From Thiohalorhabdus sp. Cl-TMA (lineage in GTDB: Bacteria > Pseudomonadota > Gammaproteobacteria > Thiohalorhabdales > Thiohalorhabdaceae): a DNA stretch of 64,000 bases. Under the pieces are notes generated by a model. The model did not search any database. It was given only the letters and a program-made list of their open reading frames with translations, and was not told the origin of the DNA. The stretch covers positions 124,001 to 188,000 of the forward strand of contig NZ_JBGUAW010000002.1 in assembly GCF_041821045.1 (NCBI RefSeq), written 5' to 3'. The translations under genes and the position numbers were made by a program. This document shows, piece by piece, positions 15,487-23,007 of the stretch (position 1 is its first letter; every line of letters begins with the position of its first letter).

Positions 15487-17631
15487 ATGACCGCCAAAGT
15501 CCAGCCGCTCAACGAGTCCGCCGCGCCGGTCCAGGTGGCGTTCCAGTCCGCTTCGCTCGACATCTGGGACAAGAAGTACCGCCTCAAGGACCTGCGCGGC
15601 GAGCCCGTGGACGCGGATGTGGACGGCACCTACCAGCGGGTGGCGCGGGCCCTGGCGGACGTGGAGGAGGCCGACAAGCGTGATCACTGGTACGAGCGCT
15701 TCCTGTGGGCGCTGCGCCAGGGCGCCATCCCCGCCGGACGCATCGTCTCCAACGCCGGCGGCCAGGACTACAAGCCCGCCACCTCCACCATCAACTGCAC
15801 CGTATCCGGCACCGTGGACGACTCCATGGACGGCATCCTCCAGAAGGTGCACGAGGCGGGCCTGACCCTGAAGGCGGGCTGCGGCATCGGCTACGACTTC
15901 TCCACCCTGCGGCCCAAGGGCGCCTTCGTGGCGGGTGCCGGCGCCATCACCTCCGGGCCGCTGTCCTTCATGGACATCTTCGACCGCATGTGCTTCACCA
16001 TCTCCTCCGCCGGCGGTCGGCGCGGCGCGCAGATGGCTACCTTCGACGTGGGCCATCCCGACGTGCAGGACTTCATCCGCGCCAAGCGCGAGGATGGCCG
16101 CCTGCGCCAGTTCAACATGTCGCTGCTGGTGACCCACGACTTTATGGAGGCGGTGAAGAACGATGGCTGGTGGCCGCTGGTGTTCCCCATCTCCGAGAAG
16201 CAGGCGGAGGTGGAGGACATCGACCTCCAGGACCCCGAGCAGGTGGTATGGCGCGACTGGCCAGGCAAGGCGGGCTACATCACCGGCGAGGACGGCCGCG
16301 TGGCCTGCAAGGTGTTCCGCACCATCAAGGCGCGCCACCTGTGGAACGCCATCATGTCCTCCACCTACGACTACGCTGAGCCCGGCTTCATCCTCATCGA
16401 CCAGTACAACGACATGAACAACAACTGGTACGTGGAGAACATCCGGGCGACCAATCCTTGCGGCGAGCAGGGTCTGCCCCCCTACGGCGCCTGCCTGCTC
16501 GGCTCCGTGAACCTCACCCAGTTCGTGCGCAACCCCTTCACCGAGGATGCCTACTTCGACTGGGCGCAGTACCGCGAGGTGGTGTCCGTGTTCACCCGCA
16601 TGCTCGACAACGTGGTGGAGATCTCCGGCCTGCCGCTGGAGGAGCAGCAGCGCGAGATCGAGCGCAAGCGCCGCCACGGCATGGGCTTCCTGGGGCTCGG
16701 CTCCACCCTCGCCATGCTGCGCATGAAATACGGCGAGCCGCCGTCGGTGGAATTCACCGAGCGGGTCTCCCGCGAGCTGGCCGAGGCCGGCTGGCGCACC
16801 GCCGCCGAGCTGGCCCAGGAGAAGGGCCCGGCGCCCATCATGGAAGAGCTGTTCACCGTAGACGAGGAGATGCTGCGCCTGCGCCCGGAGATGGCCAAGG
16901 ATGGCTATGGCGTGGGCGACACCGTGCCGGGCAAGGTGCTCATGGCCCGCTACAGCCGCTACATGCAGCAGTTCCCCCGGGAGATCACCGACCCCATCGC
17001 CGAGCACGGGGCGCGCTTCACCCACCACAGCTCCATCGCCCCCACCGGCACCATCTCGCTGTCCCTGGCCAACAACGCCAGCAACGGCATCGAGCCGTCC
17101 TTCGCCCACAAGTATTTCCGCAACGTGATCCGCGAGGGGCGCAAGTCCAAGGAGAAGGTGGAGGTGGACTCCTACGAGCTGCTCGCCTACAAGCAGTTCA
17201 TCGACCCCGACGCCGACCCCGAGGCCGAGGACCCGGCGCACCAGCTCCCCGAGTACTTCGCGGACACCAACAACATCGCCCCCTGGCAGCACGTGGAGAT
17301 CCAGGCCGCCGCCCAGAAGTGGATCGACTCCTCCATCTCCAAGACCATCAACGTGCCCCAGGACTTCGACTTCGACGAGTTCAAGGACATCTACCTCTAC
17401 GCCTACGACAAGGGGCTCAAGGGCTGCACCACCTTCCGCTTCAACCCCGAGGCCTTCCAGGGCGTGCTCGTGCAGGACAAGGACCTCAAGAACACCACCT
17501 ACCGCTTCGAGCTGGACGACGGCTCCACGGTGGAGGTGACGGGCGACCAGGAGATCGAGTACGACGGCGAGGTGCACAACGCGGCGAATTTATACGATGC
17601 CCTCAAGGAGGGGTACTACGGTCGCTTCTGA
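15487..17631 (+). CDS. nrdJ: Adenosylcobalamin-dependent ribonucleotide reductase, catalytic part (NrdJa)
   Basis: Class II ribonucleotide reductase that makes deoxyribonucleotides with a B12 radical, independent of oxygen. The redox Cys is in TSTINCTVSG (C104), the active-site cluster in TNPCGEQGLPPYGAC (N323, C325, E327), and the C-terminal barrel part in APTGTISLSLANNASNGIEPS. 714 aa; ATG with AGGAAACCC upstream. The protein stops after the barrel and a short tail (YDALKEGYYGRF) and lacks the C-terminal Cys-rich domain. That is encoded separately at 19416-20072, the nrdJa/nrdJb split known from Pseudomonas. Preceded by NrdR and DnaA-like sites. Confidence 0.93.
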   Translation: MTAKVQPLNESAAPVQVAFQSASLDIWDKKYRLKDLRGEPVDADVDGTYQRVARALADVEEADKRDHWYERFLWALRQGAIPAGRIVSNAGGQDYKPATSTINCTVSGTVDDSMDGILQKVHEAGLTLKAGCGIGYDFSTLRPKGAFVAGAGAITSGPLSFMDIFDRMCFTISSAGGRRGAQMATFDVGHPDVQDFIRAKREDGRLRQFNMSLLVTHDFMEAVKNDGWWPLVFPISEKQAEVEDIDLQDPEQVVWRDWPGKAGYITGEDGRVACKVFRTIKARHLWNAIMSSTYDYAEPGFILIDQYNDMNNNWYVENIRATNPCGEQGLPPYGACLLGSVNLTQFVRNPFTEDAYFDWAQYREVVSVFTRMLDNVVEISGLPLEEQQREIERKRRHGMGFLGLGSTLAMLRMKYGEPPSVEFTERVSRELAEAGWRTAAELAQEKGPAPIMEELFTVDEEMLRLRPEMAKDGYGVGDTVPGKVLMARYSRYMQQFPREITDPIAEHGARFTHHSSIAPTGTISLSLANNASNGIEPSFAHKYFRNVIREGRKSKEKVEVDSYELLAYKQFIDPDADPEAEDPAHQLPEYFADTNNIAPWQHVEIQAAAQKWIDSSISKTINVPQDFDFDEFKDIYLYAYDKGLKGCTTFRFNPEAFQGVLVQDKDLKNTTYRFELDDGSTVEVTGDQEIEYDGEVHNAANLYDALKEGYYGRF

Positions 17632-17636
17632 ACTTT

Positions 17637-17671
17637 AAGGGGAAGGCTTTCCTTCCTCTTAACAACCTTTT
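17637..17671 (+). terminator. Weak terminator after nrdJa
   Basis: 10-bp stem with one G-U pair (17637-17646 with 17651-17660), a 4-base loop, then TTTT 7 bases later. It would partly uncouple nrdJb from the nrdJa promoter. Confidence 0.45.
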
Positions 17672-17680
17672 GACGAGGCA

Positions 17681-17692
17681 TGACTCTAGTCA
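17681..17692. promoter_or_regulatory. Inverted repeat upstream of the Abi-alpha gene
   Basis: TGACT-CT-AGTCA, 25 bases before the ATG at 17717. Possible operator. Confidence 0.35.
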
Positions 17693-17716
17693 AGGGCCTG
17701 AATGGAGAGAGTGGTT

Positions 17717-18532
17717 ATGAGCGAAGATGGAGGTGAGGAAGAAGGAAAAACATGGCCTGATTTGGCAGATCAGGCATACCAAGATTCACTTAAGCCGGCT
17801 GTCCAAGAGTTGGGTAAAAGTCTTGAGACTCTAACGAAAGCAGTTAATGCAGCCCTTTCCCCGGTTGGGGCCTTGGTTTGGGGATACGAGCAGTGCCAGG
17901 ATTTCATTAACCAAAAGGTCGCGGAGAAATTATCTCGGACAGATGAGAGGAACATTACCACTCCAGCGCCGAATGTTGCCGGTCCGGTGTTAGAAGCGCT
18001 TAGATACTCGGGTTACCAGGAAGATCTCCAAGACCTGTTCGCTAATTTGCTTGCTAACGCCATGGATGCTGAAGAAATGCGTAATGCGCATCCTGCTTTT
18101 GTGGAAGTTCTGAAAAGTATGACCTCTGATGAAGCGAAAATCATGAAAATTTTTGGGGAAAACTTAAATAGATTCTACCCGGTTATTGATTTGAAGCTTA
18201 TAGATAATAATGAAAAAGGGTTTAAGTATCTTTATAGAAATTTGTCCACGGCAGGAGATAGGGCTGGTTGTGAATGTCCGGATCTGACTCCATCTTATTT
18301 GAACAATTTGCAAAGAATGGGGTTGATGGAAATCAATAGTGGAGAGGTAAATAGAAAAGAGGTGTATAAAAATATTGAAAAAAAGTCTCTTGTAGAGGAA
18401 CTTTTTAATTATTACGAGAATAGTGAAGATTATGATGTAGAAATTGATAGAAAGTCTGTTATTTTGAGCGAATTTGGTAAACAGTTTGCGTTAGCTTGCG
18501 TGATAGAAAAAGGCAGTGAGGTTGAAGTCTAA
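17717..18532 (+). CDS. Abi-alpha (DUF4393) family protein, putative abortive-infection factor
   Basis: 271 aa, no membrane segments. The DUF4393/Abi-alpha signature is clear: GPVLEALRYSGYQEDLQDLFANLLANAMD followed by HPAFVEVLKSMTSDEAKIM (about residues 91-140). The family is linked to phage resistance by abortive infection; mechanism unknown. The gene is AT-rich, with A/T-ending codons and runs of A, in sharp contrast to both flanking nrdJ halves, so it was acquired horizontally. ATG 17717 has GGAGAG seven bases upstream; ATG 17702 is an alternative. It is inserted between nrdJa and nrdJb. Confidence 0.8.
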   Translation: MSEDGGEEEGKTWPDLADQAYQDSLKPAVQELGKSLETLTKAVNAALSPVGALVWGYEQCQDFINQKVAEKLSRTDERNITTPAPNVAGPVLEALRYSGYQEDLQDLFANLLANAMDAEEMRNAHPAFVEVLKSMTSDEAKIMKIFGENLNRFYPVIDLKLIDNNEKGFKYLYRNLSTAGDRAGCECPDLTPSYLNNLQRMGLMEINSGEVNRKEVYKNIEKKSLVEELFNYYENSEDYDVEIDRKSVILSEFGKQFALACVIEKGSEVEV

Positions 18533-18711
18533 AAATAAATATAATGAACGTCAAATTCGAACTAGGTATTGACGCTAGCTTGGTAGAAAAGGGTCAATAC
18601 GAGTAGGGTGAAGCCTGTAGGAGGGCCGTCGAGAACCTCTCAAAAGTGCTTTCTGGAACCCGGCTTAGCTAGACTGGACCAACCAGGGCCAAGCCATTGG
18701 GGGACACGCCC

Positions 18712-18943
18712 ATGCAGGTGAACATCCACGAGGCCAAGACCAAGCTCTCCAAGCTGGGCAAGCTGGTGCTGAAGGGGGGAGCGGGTGGTGATCGCCCGGG
18801 CCGGCAAGCCCTATCTGGACCTGGTGCCGCACCGGGAGTGCACCGAGCCGCGTGCGCCGGGGTGGTTCAAGGGGCGGATCCACATGGCCGAGGACTTCGA
18901 CGCGACGCCCGAGGAGGTGATTCGGGACTTCGAGGACGGCTGA
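18712..18943 (+). pseudogene. Phd/YefM-type antitoxin, frameshifted in a G-run
   Basis: The frame opens MQVNIHEAKTKLSKLGKLVLKG, the start of Phd/YefM antitoxins. After a run of six G near 18774-18779 the family reading continues in the next frame (ERVVIARAGKPYLDLVPH...EEVIRDFEDG) to the TGA at 18941-18943. Removing one G restores a 76-residue antitoxin whose stop abuts the toxin start. Either a real inactivation, a phase-variable tract, or a base-count error in the homopolymer. Confidence 0.75.
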
Positions 18944-19330
18944 GTGGAGCGCCTGCTCCTCGATACCCACGCCTTCCCCTGGTGGCTCGCCGACGATCCC
19001 CGGCTGGGGGAAGGCGCCCGGGCGCGGATCGCCGAGCCCGCCAATCCGGTGTACGTGAGCGCCGCCACCGGCTGGGAGATCGGCATCAAGAAGGCGCTGG
19101 GCAAGCTCCAGGCCCCGGACGACCTGGACGCGGCGGTGGCGGAGGAGGGGTTCACCCATCTGCCCATCACCTTCTTCCACGGCGAGCAGGCCGGCGCCCT
19201 GCCCGCCCACCACCGCGACCCCTTCGACCGCATGCTGGTGGCCCAGGCCCAGGCGGAGGGGCTGGTGGTCGTCACCCGGGATCCGCAGAGCAAGGCCTAC
19301 GGCATCCGCACCGTCAATGCCGAGGCCTGA
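18944..19330 (+). CDS. PIN-domain toxin (VapC-like, COG3744 type)
   Basis: Ribonuclease toxin of a type II toxin-antitoxin pair. The PIN acidic residues are visible: D7 in LLLDTHAF, the Glu of ATGWEIGIKKALGKL, and the Asp residues of HHRDPFDRML and TRDPQ. 128 aa, full length. The GTG start follows directly on the antitoxin TGA. Its intact reading beside a frameshifted antitoxin is odd, because an unneutralised toxin should be harmful. Confidence 0.88.
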   Translation: MERLLLDTHAFPWWLADDPRLGEGARARIAEPANPVYVSAATGWEIGIKKALGKLQAPDDLDAAVAEEGFTHLPITFFHGEQAGALPAHHRDPFDRMLVAQAQAEGLVVVTRDPQSKAYGIRTVNAEA

Positions 19331-19415
19331 CCCGAACCCGGAATAACCGGGACCGAATTCATTGGGCCTTCGGGGGAGAGGCCCGCCGCCCGCACAACCG
19401 CAGAAGGAAACGGAC

Positions 19416-20072
19416 ATGACCATCAAGATCGACAAGCAGATCACCGGCTACGCGGTGGTGAAGGACGAGGAAGAGCGGGCGCAGGGCCCGCAGGTGGCCG
19501 CCGAGCAGGGCGAGGCCGACGTGGTGCATGTGACGCCGCCCGACGAGCGGCCGGAGCGGTTGGAGGGCTCCACCTACAAGATCAAAACGCCCCTGTCCGA
19601 GCACGCCCTGTACGTGACCATCAACGACGTGGTCATGCACGAGGGCACGCCCAAGGAGCACCGCCGGCCCTTCGAGATATTCATTAACTCCAAGAACATG
19701 GAGCACTTCCAGTGGATCGTCGCCCTGACGCGGGTGATCTCCGGCGTGTTCCGCAAGGGCGGCGACGTCTGCTTCCTCGTCGAGGAGCTGCGCTCCGTGT
19801 TCGACCCCTCCGGCGGCTACTTCAAGAAGGGCGGCCGCTACATGCCCTCGTTGGTGGCCGAGCTCGGCGAGGTGCTGGAGATGCACCTGCAGAAGATCGG
19901 CATGATCGAGAAGCAGGAAACCCCCGAGGAGCTCAAGGCCAAGAAGGCCCAGGCCGAGGAGACTGGGGCACTGTCCAACGCCACCCAGTGCGGCGCCTGC
20001 GGCGCCATGGCCATGGTGCGCATGGATGGATGCAACCTCTGCCTGGAGTGCGGCGACTCTAAGTGTGGCTGA
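19416..20072 (+). CDS. nrdJb: Ribonucleotide reductase class II accessory subunit (NrdJb)
   Basis: C-terminal partner of the split B12-dependent reductase. The TSCPD-like body (HALYVTINDVVMHEG, RPFEIFINSKNMEHFQWIVALTRVISGVFR, FKKGGRYMPSLVAELGEVLEMHL) is followed by a Cys-rich end (QCGACGAMAMVRMDGCNLCLECGDSKCG), six cysteines suited to pass electrons to the NrdJa active site or bind zinc. ATG 19416 with AAGGAAA upstream; 218 aa. It is 1.8 kb from nrdJa, whereas in Pseudomonas the halves are nearly adjacent. It is 22 bp before the methyltransferase gene. Confidence 0.85.
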   Translation: MTIKIDKQITGYAVVKDEEERAQGPQVAAEQGEADVVHVTPPDERPERLEGSTYKIKTPLSEHALYVTINDVVMHEGTPKEHRRPFEIFINSKNMEHFQWIVALTRVISGVFRKGGDVCFLVEELRSVFDPSGGYFKKGGRYMPSLVAELGEVLEMHLQKIGMIEKQETPEELKAKKAQAEETGALSNATQCGACGAMAMVRMDGCNLCLECGDSKCG

Positions 20073-20094
20073 GCCACCGGGAAAAGGGGTAACC

Positions 20095-21333
20095 GTGTCT
20101 GCGCTTCGGGCGGTCAGTCTCTATTCGGGCGCGGGAGGGCTCGACCTCGGCATGGAAGCCGCCGGCTTCCAGGTTGGCTCCGCCGTGGAGTCCGATGCCG
20201 ATTGCGTAGAAACCCTCCGGGCTAACCGGGACTGGCCCGTTTTCCCCGAATACATCCAGGAAGTCCCTTCCGAATCCTTGCTTGAGGCCGCCGGACTGGC
20301 CCCGGAAGAGCCCGATCTCCTGTTCGGCGGCCCTCCCTGCCAGCCCTTCTCCAAATGCGGCTACTGGGCCACCGGCGATTCCGCCCGCCTGGACGACCCC
20401 CGCGCCGATACCGTGGAGGCTTTCCTGCGCGTGCTGCGCGACACCCGCCCCCGGGCCTTCCTCATGGAGAACGTCACGGGGATGGCCTATTCCGGCAAGG
20501 ACGAGGGTCTGCAGCTCATCCGCCGGGCCCTGGAGGACATTAACCGCCAGTTCGGCACCGCCTACGACGTGGAGGTGCTGATCCTCAACGCCGCCGATTT
20601 CGGCGTACCGCAGACCCGGGAGCGGGTGTTCCTGATCGGCTCAAGGGACGGACGCACCTTCGGCGAGCTGAAGCCCACCCACCGGGCTCTGCCCGGCCTG
20701 GAAAAGCAGCGCGCCCTGCCCCTGGACGAGGGCCTGCCCTATTGGCGCACTGCCTGGGATGCGCTCGGGGACCTGGAAACGGACGAGGACGATCCCGAGC
20801 TCCAGCCCCGGGGCAAATGGGGCGACCTCTTGCCTGCGGTCCCCGAGGGCCAGAACTACCTCTACCACACGGAGCGCGGCGAGGGTCTGCCGCTGTTCGG
20901 CTGGCGCCGGCGCTTCTGGAACTTCCTGCTCAAGATCGCCAAGGACCGGCCCTCCTGGACCCTGACCGCCCAGCCCGGCCCGGCCACGGGACCCTTCCAC
21001 TGGAACAGCCGGCGGCTGTCCATGCGCGAGCTGTGCCGGCTGCAGACCTTCCCCGACGATTTCGTGGTACGGGGGGACATCAATGGCGTGCAGAAGCAGC
21101 TGGGTAATGCCGTGCCCTCCGCACTCGCGGAAAAGCTGGGCCTGGAGATCCGTGCCCGTTTCTTCGGCGACGAGACCGCCCGCGACCGGCCCCCGTCCTT
21201 AGTCCCCGCCGCACGCAGCGACTGCCCGCCTGCGGAGCCGGTGGCGCCGGTTCCCGACAAGTACCTGCATCTGGTGGACAGCGATACGGCCCACCCGGGC
21301 ACGGGTCAGGGCCGCAGGGCTGCCGCGGAATAG
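20095..21333 (+). CDS. DNA (cytosine-5-)-methyltransferase
   Basis: Modification enzyme of a type II system, transferring methyl from SAM to C5 of cytosine. Conserved m5C motifs in order: I SLYSGAGGLDLGMEAAGF, IV GGPPCQPFSK with nucleophile C82, VI MENVTGM, VIII PQTRERVFLIGSRDG, IX RELCRLQTFPDDF, X QLGNAVPSALA. A short acidic and proline-rich tail extends past motif X. GTG start with AAGGGG six bases upstream; 412 aa. The endonuclease gene starts 6 bp after its stop. Recognition sequence unknown. Confidence 0.94.
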   Translation: MSALRAVSLYSGAGGLDLGMEAAGFQVGSAVESDADCVETLRANRDWPVFPEYIQEVPSESLLEAAGLAPEEPDLLFGGPPCQPFSKCGYWATGDSARLDDPRADTVEAFLRVLRDTRPRAFLMENVTGMAYSGKDEGLQLIRRALEDINRQFGTAYDVEVLILNAADFGVPQTRERVFLIGSRDGRTFGELKPTHRALPGLEKQRALPLDEGLPYWRTAWDALGDLETDEDDPELQPRGKWGDLLPAVPEGQNYLYHTERGEGLPLFGWRRRFWNFLLKIAKDRPSWTLTAQPGPATGPFHWNSRRLSMRELCRLQTFPDDFVVRGDINGVQKQLGNAVPSALAEKLGLEIRARFFGDETARDRPPSLVPAARSDCPPAEPVAPVPDKYLHLVDSDTAHPGTGQGRRAAAE

Positions 21334-21339
21334 CCGGGC

Positions 21340-22527
21340 ATGGAATACCGCGCCTATTCCGTTCAGCACCATGCCCGCGAGCCGCTGGTTCGCTTCATGC
21401 GGGAGGCGCTGGAGGCGAGCGGCTGCCGCATCCTGAACGCCTCCGATCCGGACCATGCCCCCTTCCGCATCACCTTCGAGGCTCCGGACGGCGAGCGCAT
21501 GGGCATCGTGGCCTATGCCTTCAACGCCAATCAGCGCGAGACCAAGAACCGCCCCGAGGACGAGCACCGCTTCCAGGTGAAATACGGCTCGGAAAAGCGG
21601 GAGGGCAAGGAGCTACACGACCTGTGGCAGGATCCATACGAGCTGTACACCACCCTGCTCGTGGGCATCAATACCGAGCGCGGCTTCTTCGTGGCCGCCG
21701 ATCCGGTCCTGCACAGCCCCACCCGCTTCTTCATCTCCCTGGAGTACAAGGAGGAGCACGTCCAGGCCATCGAGGAATCCGGCTGGCATGCCTGGGAGCG
21801 GGAGAAGCGGGACCAGTCGGGCTTGGAGGAGCCCACGGAAGTACTGGTGGGCGGGAAGCCCGAGCGTTTTCTGGAGTACGTCCGCTTCGAGCGGGCCGCC
21901 AAGGGCCTTTCCCAGGGCCACCGCTCCCTGCTGGCGGACAAGTTCGGCGATCTGAGCGCCCTCCGTATTGCAGGCCTCGAAGCCCCCGAGCCGGTCATGG
22001 GGCCGGGCCGGCTGCACGATCTGGCGGCGGAATTCGAGCTGACCACCGACGAGATCCTGGACCTCATCCAGAGTGCGCCGCGCCTCAAGATGGCCGTCCG
22101 GGGCTGGGTGGCCGAGCGCCATCTGGTGGAGCAGCTGCGGGCCTTGCCGGAGCTGGAGCAATGCCGCCCCCTGGAAGGGGAAGGCCAGCCGGACGTGGAG
22201 GTGCGGTTTCCCGGCCAGGGGCCGGTCCTGATCGAGTGCAAGAACATCCTTCGGGATGCCTACGCCGACGGCAGTTACAAGCTGGATTTCCAGCGCACCC
22301 GTGCGGCCAAGGGGGATCCCTGCTCCCGTTACTATTCTCCTACTGAGTTCCAGGTAGCGGCGGCCTGCTTGCACCCCAGAACCGAGCAATGGGAGTTTCG
22401 TTACGCATTGACCCGGGAGCTGGGTGTGCATGAGAAGTGTCCGGGACGAATCAATAACCGGATCAAGGTGACCGGTGATTGGGCTTCCGATCCCCTGGAA
22501 GTTATCCGGTCAGCACCTCAAGCATAG
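21340..22527 (+). CDS. Putative type II restriction endonuclease (PD-(D/E)xK)
   Basis: Probable cognate nuclease of the upstream methyltransferase. The C-terminal third carries a PD-(D/E)xK core: GQPDVEVRF (D285), then VLIECKN (E299, K301) 14 residues on, followed by a polar region with RYYSPTEFQVAAAC. An N-terminal domain of about 170 aa (FRITFEAPDGERMGIVAYAF, HRFQVKYGS) and a helical linker precede it. I do not recognise the specificity or a named prototype. 395 aa; ATG 6 bp after the methyltransferase stop. Context and catalytic motif agree. Confidence 0.75.
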   Translation: MEYRAYSVQHHAREPLVRFMREALEASGCRILNASDPDHAPFRITFEAPDGERMGIVAYAFNANQRETKNRPEDEHRFQVKYGSEKREGKELHDLWQDPYELYTTLLVGINTERGFFVAADPVLHSPTRFFISLEYKEEHVQAIEESGWHAWEREKRDQSGLEEPTEVLVGGKPERFLEYVRFERAAKGLSQGHRSLLADKFGDLSALRIAGLEAPEPVMGPGRLHDLAAEFELTTDEILDLIQSAPRLKMAVRGWVAERHLVEQLRALPELEQCRPLEGEGQPDVEVRFPGQGPVLIECKNILRDAYADGSYKLDFQRTRAAKGDPCSRYYSPTEFQVAAACLHPRTEQWEFRYALTRELGVHEKCPGRINNRIKVTGDWASDPLEVIRSAPQA

Positions 22528-22539
22528 GCAGCCTCCGCC

Positions 22540-23007
22540 ATGGGCGACCAGCGCAAGGCCCCCCGCTTCGATGACCGCAGACCCGCCTCCGAGCACGCCT
22601 CCAAGGCCAAGCGGAAGAACCGCCGGACCGACACCCGCGCCGAAATGCTGCTTCGTAAGGCGCTCTGGGCCCGAGGAGCCCGCTATCGACTGCATGCCAG
22701 GGACCTCCCCGGCAAGCCCGATCTGGTTTTTCGAGGCAAGCGCGTGGCCGTCTTCGTGGACGGCGATTTCTGGCATGGCCGGGACTGGGAGAAAAACCGG
22801 GAGAAGGTTGCCCGGCGCAGCAATGGCGACTACTGGGTGGCCAAAATCGAGTACAACATGGAGCGGGACCGGCATCAGACAAAAGCGCTGGAAGCCCTGG
22901 GCTGGACGGTGCTCCGTTTCTGGGAGACGGATGTAAAGAAGGACCTTCAAGAAGCGGTGGAAGCAGTGCTCGCCGCAATAGCCTCCCGGAACCCGGGAGG
23001 TGGTTGA
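22540..23007 (+). CDS. vsr: Very short patch repair endonuclease Vsr
   Basis: Nicks next to T:G mismatches that arise when 5-methylcytosine deaminates, protecting the modified site from mutation. Signatures: RTDTRAEMLLRKALWARGARYRLH, the catalytic Asp region LPGKPDLVFRGKRVAVFVDGDFWHG, and the C-terminal LGWTVLRFWETDVK. 155 aa, normal for the family. It starts 12 bp after the endonuclease, giving a complete M-R-Vsr cassette on one transcript. Confidence 0.92.
   Translation: MGDQRKAPRFDDRRPASEHASKAKRKNRRTDTRAEMLLRKALWARGARYRLHARDLPGKPDLVFRGKRVAVFVDGDFWHGRDWEKNREKVARRSNGDYWVAKIEYNMERDRHQTKALEALGWTVLRFWETDVKKDLQEAVEAVLAAIASRNPGGG

Follow-up and report, generated by a model that had tools for sequence, protein, structure and literature searches.

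Conflict genes within and behind a split class II ribonucleotide reductase operon point to a recurrently used insertion site

In a 64,000-nucleotide stretch of the Thiohalorhabdus sp. Cl-TMA genome (contig NZ_JBGUAW010000002.1, positions 124,001 to 188,000; hereafter the window), the two genes of a split class II, adenosylcobalamin-dependent ribonucleotide reductase (RNR) are pushed apart and followed by genes of defence families. All of the genes lie on the + strand, in the order nrdJa, Abi-alpha, Phd, PIN, nrdJb, a C5-cytosine DNA methyltransferase (MTase), a protein with an MTaX1 domain and a PD-(D/E)xK motif, and Vsr. nrdJa (15487..17631), the catalytic part of the reductase (TIGR02504, 1.2e-167; PF02867, 2.4e-125), is followed just beyond its stop codon by a hairpin with a 12-bp stem (17635..17663, + strand). 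nrdJb (19416..20072), the cysteine-rich redox part (PF12637, 1.9e-8; C-terminal part of NF006417, 1.4e-14), begins only after a gap of 1,784 nt, and the GTG start of the MTase lies 22 nt 3' of the nrdJb stop. A first-pass annotation had given these genes, the coordinates of nrdJa and nrdJb, the 1.8-kb gap and the 22-nt spacing as we find them, except that Phd is not one open frame. Our preferred explanation, which we hold with good confidence, is that the split nrdJ operon is a permissive and recurrently used insertion hotspot, and that two blocks of acquired conflict genes occupy it in the window.

The first gene in the gap, Abi-alpha (17702..18532; DUF4393), encodes a 276-aa abortive-infection protein that covers positions 3-196 of the 196-position PF14337 profile (1.2e-53; 182.5 bits against a curated cut-off of 29) and matches the PADLOC model PDC-S47 at 3.8e-55. 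It is followed by a Phd/YefM-type antitoxin (18712..18943), traced from its open reading frames (ORFs), the N-terminal and C-terminal parts of which lie in different frames, with the break at a G-rich run near 18775 of the assembly. The C-terminal part ends at the start of the PIN gene. No intact antitoxin frame was found 5' of the PIN toxin, and the read-through piece matches PF02604 at 4.9e-6, which is below the family cut-off (26.7 bits against 29.8). The PIN-domain, VapC-type toxin itself (18944..19330; 128 aa) is a clear member of PF01850 (8.2e-15), with relatives at below 60% identity in hundreds of plasmids and with plasmid relatives annotated VapC. By its family it would be an RNase toxin. 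This toxin-antitoxin pair is frameshifted in the assembly, and a defence role for it is unproven. The first-pass annotation had called Abi-alpha AT-rich, and this gene alone is so (41% GC); the Phd/PIN stretch (70%) and the restriction-modification (R-M) genes (64-69%) are host-like. Because 41% and 70% GC stand side by side in a window of 68% GC overall, Abi-alpha and the Phd/PIN pair were probably acquired separately.

The cassette behind nrdJb is of a familiar kind. Its MTase (20095..21333; PF00145, 1.6e-50; PADLOC MTase_II, 9e-74) carries the catalytic PCQ, ENV and QxRxR motifs, the last as QTRER. The adjacent putative restriction endonuclease (REase; 21340..22527) is recognizable by an MTaX1 domain (PF20296, 2.9e-21) and the PD-(D/E)xK-like motif DVEVRFPGQGPVLIECK only, and a search of the PDB returned no solved relative. 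Relatives of this protein occur in 2 other genomes among 369 gammaproteobacterial genomes; the closest homologue found (L141, G135:C9:58626-59718), at 56-66% identity, is spread over two overlapping frames and apparently broken. The cassette ends with a Vsr-type mismatch endonuclease (22540..23007; PF03852, 1e-25; TIGR00632, 4.4e-38, with a score above the cut-off). In systems of this kind the C5-MTase protects host DNA and the paired nuclease cuts unmodified DNA, while Vsr starts the repair of T:G mismatches that arise from deaminated 5-methylcytosine. The cassette resembles known type II C5-MTase systems with Vsr in that the MTase stands beside a PD-(D/E)xK-type nuclease candidate and Vsr, and it differs from them in that the nuclease candidate belongs to the MTaX1 group. 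In plasmid searches Abi-alpha reached at most 43% identity and the MTaX1 protein gave one weak match; IMG/VR held no close relative of either.

The size of the nrdJa-nrdJb gap is exceptional. Pairing of nrdJa and nrdJb positions across the 369 gammaproteobacterial genomes gave 129 linked pairs, with a median gap of 47 nt and a 95th percentile of 332 nt, so the near contiguity that the first-pass annotation had ascribed to Pseudomonas holds more widely. Only three gaps exceed 600 nt, namely that of this genome (G000), which is the largest, and those of the genus-mate G001 (1,346 nt) and of G366 (1,047 nt); here and below, G and L numbers denote surveyed genomes and loci. The window gap is thus far outside the usual range. 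The G366 gap contains a lysine- and alanine-rich, histone-H1-like ORF (L114:4407-4955). The genus-mate is the more informative case. BLASTN similarity between the window and G001 runs through nrdJa and the hairpin to 17673, breaks off, and restarts exactly at the nrdJb ATG, which delimits an inserted stretch of 17674..19415 (+ strand). Between the same borders G001 has a 45% GC gap with a single AT-rich NTPase gene, matching nSTAND1 and AAA_16, that ends 9 nt 5' of nrdJb, and G001 does not have the MTase/REase/Vsr cassette 3' of nrdJb. Since the two genomes share borders and differ in content, two different cargos have come to occupy one junction within a single genus. In the third genome of the genus (G002), the contig holds just the start of nrdJa. 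Elsewhere, nrdJa and nrdJb lie on different contigs in G330 (L144, L145), G372 (L148, L149) and G373 (L150, L151), and at least some of these genes have housekeeping-looking neighbours, which indicates that the split genes can be unlinked.

The reductase is of a known two-gene type, in which a gene for the NrdJ catalytic core is followed by a separate gene for the C-terminal, Cys-rich domain. NrdJb of the window is a TSCPD-domain protein that corresponds to the C-terminal part of the B12-dependent RNR model and ends in CGACGAMAMVRMDGCNLCLECGDSKCG. In Pseudomonas aeruginosa, the catalytic core is on NrdJa and the redox cysteines are on NrdJb, and a working enzyme requires both; nearly all Gammaproteobacteria with a class II RNR have split nrdJ, as do some Beta-, Alpha- and Zetaproteobacteria (Crona et al. 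2015, PMC4520616; Loderer et al. 2017, PMC5704485). The enzyme here is of the same kind, with its Cys-rich domain in a separate nrdJb, but nrdJab of P. aeruginosa is described as one operon, whereas in the window 1.8 kb of foreign genes separate the halves. In this draft assembly (99.2% complete), RNR-barrel matches were confined to two genes, the split nrdJ and a second NrdJ-like gene, and no class III RNR gene was found. The second gene (L001:1411-3270, G000:C1) has no evident Cys-rich tail, and counterparts of it occur in both genus-mates. If NrdJb is essential, then nrdJb must still be expressed despite the 1.8 kb inserted before it.

The hairpin after nrdJa belongs to the last sequence that the window and G001 have in common before their inserts. 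It is aligned between the two genomes with two compensated base pairs and folds better than shuffled sequences (z -3.1 in the window and -2.8 in G001), and on these grounds it is older than the inserts and probably has a function. Because it lacks a T tail, we do not call it a terminator. Intrinsic terminators and promoters are no more frequent in the region than in shuffled sequence, the + strand between nrdJa and nrdJb shows no consensus sigma-70 promoter, and an Rfam scan of the region gave no match. Strong hairpins, some of them similar to repetitive extragenic palindromic (REP) sequences, fill many short nrdJa-nrdJb gaps in unrelated genomes, and it is possible that such hairpins regulate the NrdJa:NrdJb ratio.

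A second line of evidence comes from Betaproteobacteria. At several betaproteobacterial nrdJb loci, including that of Methylophilus sp. 14 (G371), nrdJa fell outside the stretch that had been fetched, and for this reason we surveyed 187 genomes of the family of this organism, which we take to be Methylophilaceae. The gap was at most 309 nt in 130 of 134 linked nrdJa-nrdJb pairs and 11-18 kb in the other four. Three of the large gaps (G370, L138; G553, L152; G555, L153) hold genes that, judged from sequence, resemble those of Tad pili, and one of the three also holds Ku and LigD-like genes. The fourth, in Methylophilus sp. 14 itself, is an AT-rich island of 18.3 kb. Three tyrosine recombinases of 371, 547 and 622 aa (PF00589) and a 157-aa gene occupy the end next to nrdJa, an arrangement that corresponds to the ginABCD layout of GInt elements (PMC5385486). 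Among the cargo of the island are an Eco57I/TaqI-like MTase paired with a type II REase, and the full set of a type II cyclic-oligonucleotide-based antiphage signalling system (CBASS), with a patatin phospholipase, a DncV-like cyclase, and E1-E2 and JAB proteins.

At the right border of this island, TACGGAAAATTCTAA duplicates the 3' end of nrdJa (Y-G-K-F-stop), and immediately 3' of it stands the sequence that directly follows nrdJa in relatives without an insert; the island therefore lies within the final codons of nrdJa, and the gene keeps a complete end. The short imperfect direct repeats TACGGTAAATTTTGA and TACGGAAAATTCTAA flank the island at its borders. In G536, one contig carries nrdJa followed by the same recombinase set, and on another contig nrdJb is preceded by a TATGGCAAATTTTAG copy and then by a pair of a short prokaryotic Argonaute (pAgo) and a TIR-APAZ protein of the SPARTA type. 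We infer that the two contigs join as one island; the nrdJb-side contig runs on into further accessory-looking genes. A full-length scan at 20 nt gave no significant result for the islands of G371 and G536; the repeats are only about 15 nt long, and the argument rests on the exact border position. Site-specific integration of a three-integrase defence island at the nrdJa 3' end is shown here for one family. GInts are known as carriers of defence systems at hotspots in E. coli (PMC10121019) and of post-segregational killing genes (PMC5385486), and the G371 and G536 islands are like them in having three integrases and a small fourth gene at one end, defence cargo and short imperfect direct repeats. 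The difference is the site, the nrdJa 3' end, for which we found no report of nrdJ as a GInt target in the literature searched; the window itself is without gin genes. The last codons of nrdJa are an apparently unreported attachment site of the GInt-like islands, at which the gene end is restored on insertion.

The position directly 3' of nrdJb, where the window has its MTase/REase/Vsr set, also carries defence genes in some relatives. Of 67 genomes, five have a strong PADLOC defence match as the first gene 3' of nrdJb, against none of 57 with such a match as the first gene 5' of nrdJa. The five are a CBASS cyclase (L035), a UG36 defence-associated reverse transcriptase (DRT; L081), PDC-S36 (L063), PD-T7-4 (L023) and a C5-MTase (L053, with the same gene in G372). 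Weak matches were left out on both sides: 12 to 'mad2' in the upstream control (best 6.7e-17), taken as generic methyltransferase cross-hits, and in the downstream set those to capP and RmrA along with one RtcR-type regulator. Fisher's two-sided test gives P 0.061 for this contrast and 0.015 when two Tn7-like loci 3' of nrdJb (L019, L022) are added, values that are indicative only because the genomes are related. The tnsB genes of these two loci match solved TnsB at 1e-59 and 1e-83. The transposons, with a tnsA/B/C/tniQ-like gene order, lie at L019:11176-16343 and L022:15257-20155, in Methylobacillus caricis and a Methylotenera metagenome-assembled genome.

As in a defence hotspot, then, the same core-gene borders carry different cargo or none in relatives. 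This gives good support to the suggestion in the first-pass annotation that the locus may be a landing site, and the comparison of intervals that it had proposed turned up mostly empty sites, with other defence genes in some gaps. It had also reasoned that identical genes between nrdJa and nrdJb in all relatives would speak against recent insertion, and the cargo instead varies or is absent. Under the hotspot explanation, one block would have entered the junction just past the hairpin, with Abi-alpha probably gained apart from the Phd/PIN pair, and the R-M cassette would have entered directly 3' of nrdJb. Because all of these genes point the same way as the operon, the inserts could be read from nrdJa, and nrdJb need not have been silenced. 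Going by the known families, DNA that lacks methylation at the recognition site would be restricted by the R-M pair, Vsr would repair the T:G mismatches derived from 5-methylcytosine, and Abi-alpha would abort infection, as the Enterococcus faecalis protein does through premature lysis (PMC6356687). The latter, from prophage 6, belongs to the same Pfam family and is of similar length (272 aa); the gene here is chromosomal and lies in a gammaproteobacterial RNR operon, where no prophage context was seen. The explanation assigns the inserts no role in deoxynucleoside triphosphate (dNTP) supply. We infer that the window cargo arrived as mobile DNA and is expressed.

Several observations weigh against this hotspot explanation. 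Within the genus the junction is visible in two genomes only, neither of which is an empty site. The window insert retains no recombinase, transposase or attachment (att) repeat that would show how it entered. Some large gaps carry non-defence genes, namely the Tad pilus locus and the H1-like gene. The contrast between the two flanks of the operon is small, phylogenetically clumped and, on its own, borderline, and the presumed G536 island is divided between two contigs.

The same non-defence genes, in G553, G555, G370 and G366, also suit a neutral account that is plausible to us but less probable, in which a permissive gap gathers any non-essential DNA with no preference for defence, and defence genes appear as common mobile cargo. 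The hairpins and REP-like palindromes common in short gaps fit this account as well. However, known or putative defence genes are present in four of about six independent large inserts (G000, G001, G371 and G536), in one large insert an integrase operon stands at the 3' end of nrdJa, and defence matches 3' of nrdJb exceed those in the upstream control. Neutral accretion is a narrower form of the hotspot explanation, and our confidences in the two overlap.

It is unlikely that the window insert is a worn-down remnant of a GInt-like island that has lost its integrases. The junction is the same, and both the AT-rich Abi-alpha gene and the defence and post-segregational killing genes that GInts carry (PMC10121019; PMC5385486) would suit such an origin. 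Yet neither the 1.8-kb gap nor the cassette 3' of nrdJb has an ORF of a ginABCD operon with three tyrosine recombinases, and no att-like repeat of the nrdJa or nrdJb 3' end was found in either; moreover, the left border shared with G001 lies past the hairpin, some 40 nt 3' of the nrdJa stop, and not inside the last codons. More doubtful still is the proposal that Gamma- and Betaproteobacteria share split nrdJ as a conserved hotspot dedicated to defence, with elements that evolved to target the nrdJa 3' end and with cargo co-expressed with dNTP supply inside the RNR transcript.

The least probable reading is that defence genes are kept in the RNR operon through co-regulation of dNTP supply and defence, for example by expression of Abi-alpha on RNR induction or by a link between dNTP starvation and abortive infection. 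The common orientation of the genes, the closeness of the R-M cassette to nrdJb and the lack of a consensus promoter in the gap would be compatible with it, as would the position of the NTPase gene in G001, for which co-transcription with nrdJb is plausible. Against it, the cargo changes among genomes with a filled site and includes non-defence genes, the other eight Abi-alpha copies (the gene occurs in 9 of the 369 genomes) are without an RNR gene in the fetched stretches, and the locus is no fixed unit, since some genomes have nrdJa and nrdJb unlinked or on separate contigs. Apart from possible co-transcription there is no sign of a shared mechanism, and the idea in the first-pass annotation that defence is tied to dNTP metabolism finds no support.

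Seen as a hotspot, the split nrdJ operon resembles the defence-island sites of E. coli and P. aeruginosa (PMC10121019), which likewise have fixed core-gene borders, variable cargo and mostly empty states; here the border lies inside an RNR operon, in both Gamma- and Betaproteobacteria. A core metabolic operon thereby joins the list of landing sites for defence genes, and a cheap rule follows for finding new defence systems, which is to look between nrdJa and nrdJb and just 3' of nrdJb. The locus also shows that the two genes of an RNR operon can be driven apart, which raises a testable question about how NrdJa and NrdJb are kept in balance. Taken by itself, the window locus is a striking but ordinary example, and the defence genes in it are of known kinds; of most use among the new points is the recurrence of the hotspot in other families, with GInt-like defence islands at the nrdJa 3' end.

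nrdJa can also be interrupted from within. At the conserved NPC|GEQ site, the G001 gene (L113:8243-11512, G001:C7:130242-133511) holds an intein of about 1.1 kb, which starts with Cys and ends with His-Asn before Cys, and nrdJa of the window has an empty intein site. Similar breaks, at query residue ~325, occur at L015, L020, L029, L056, L066 and L070.

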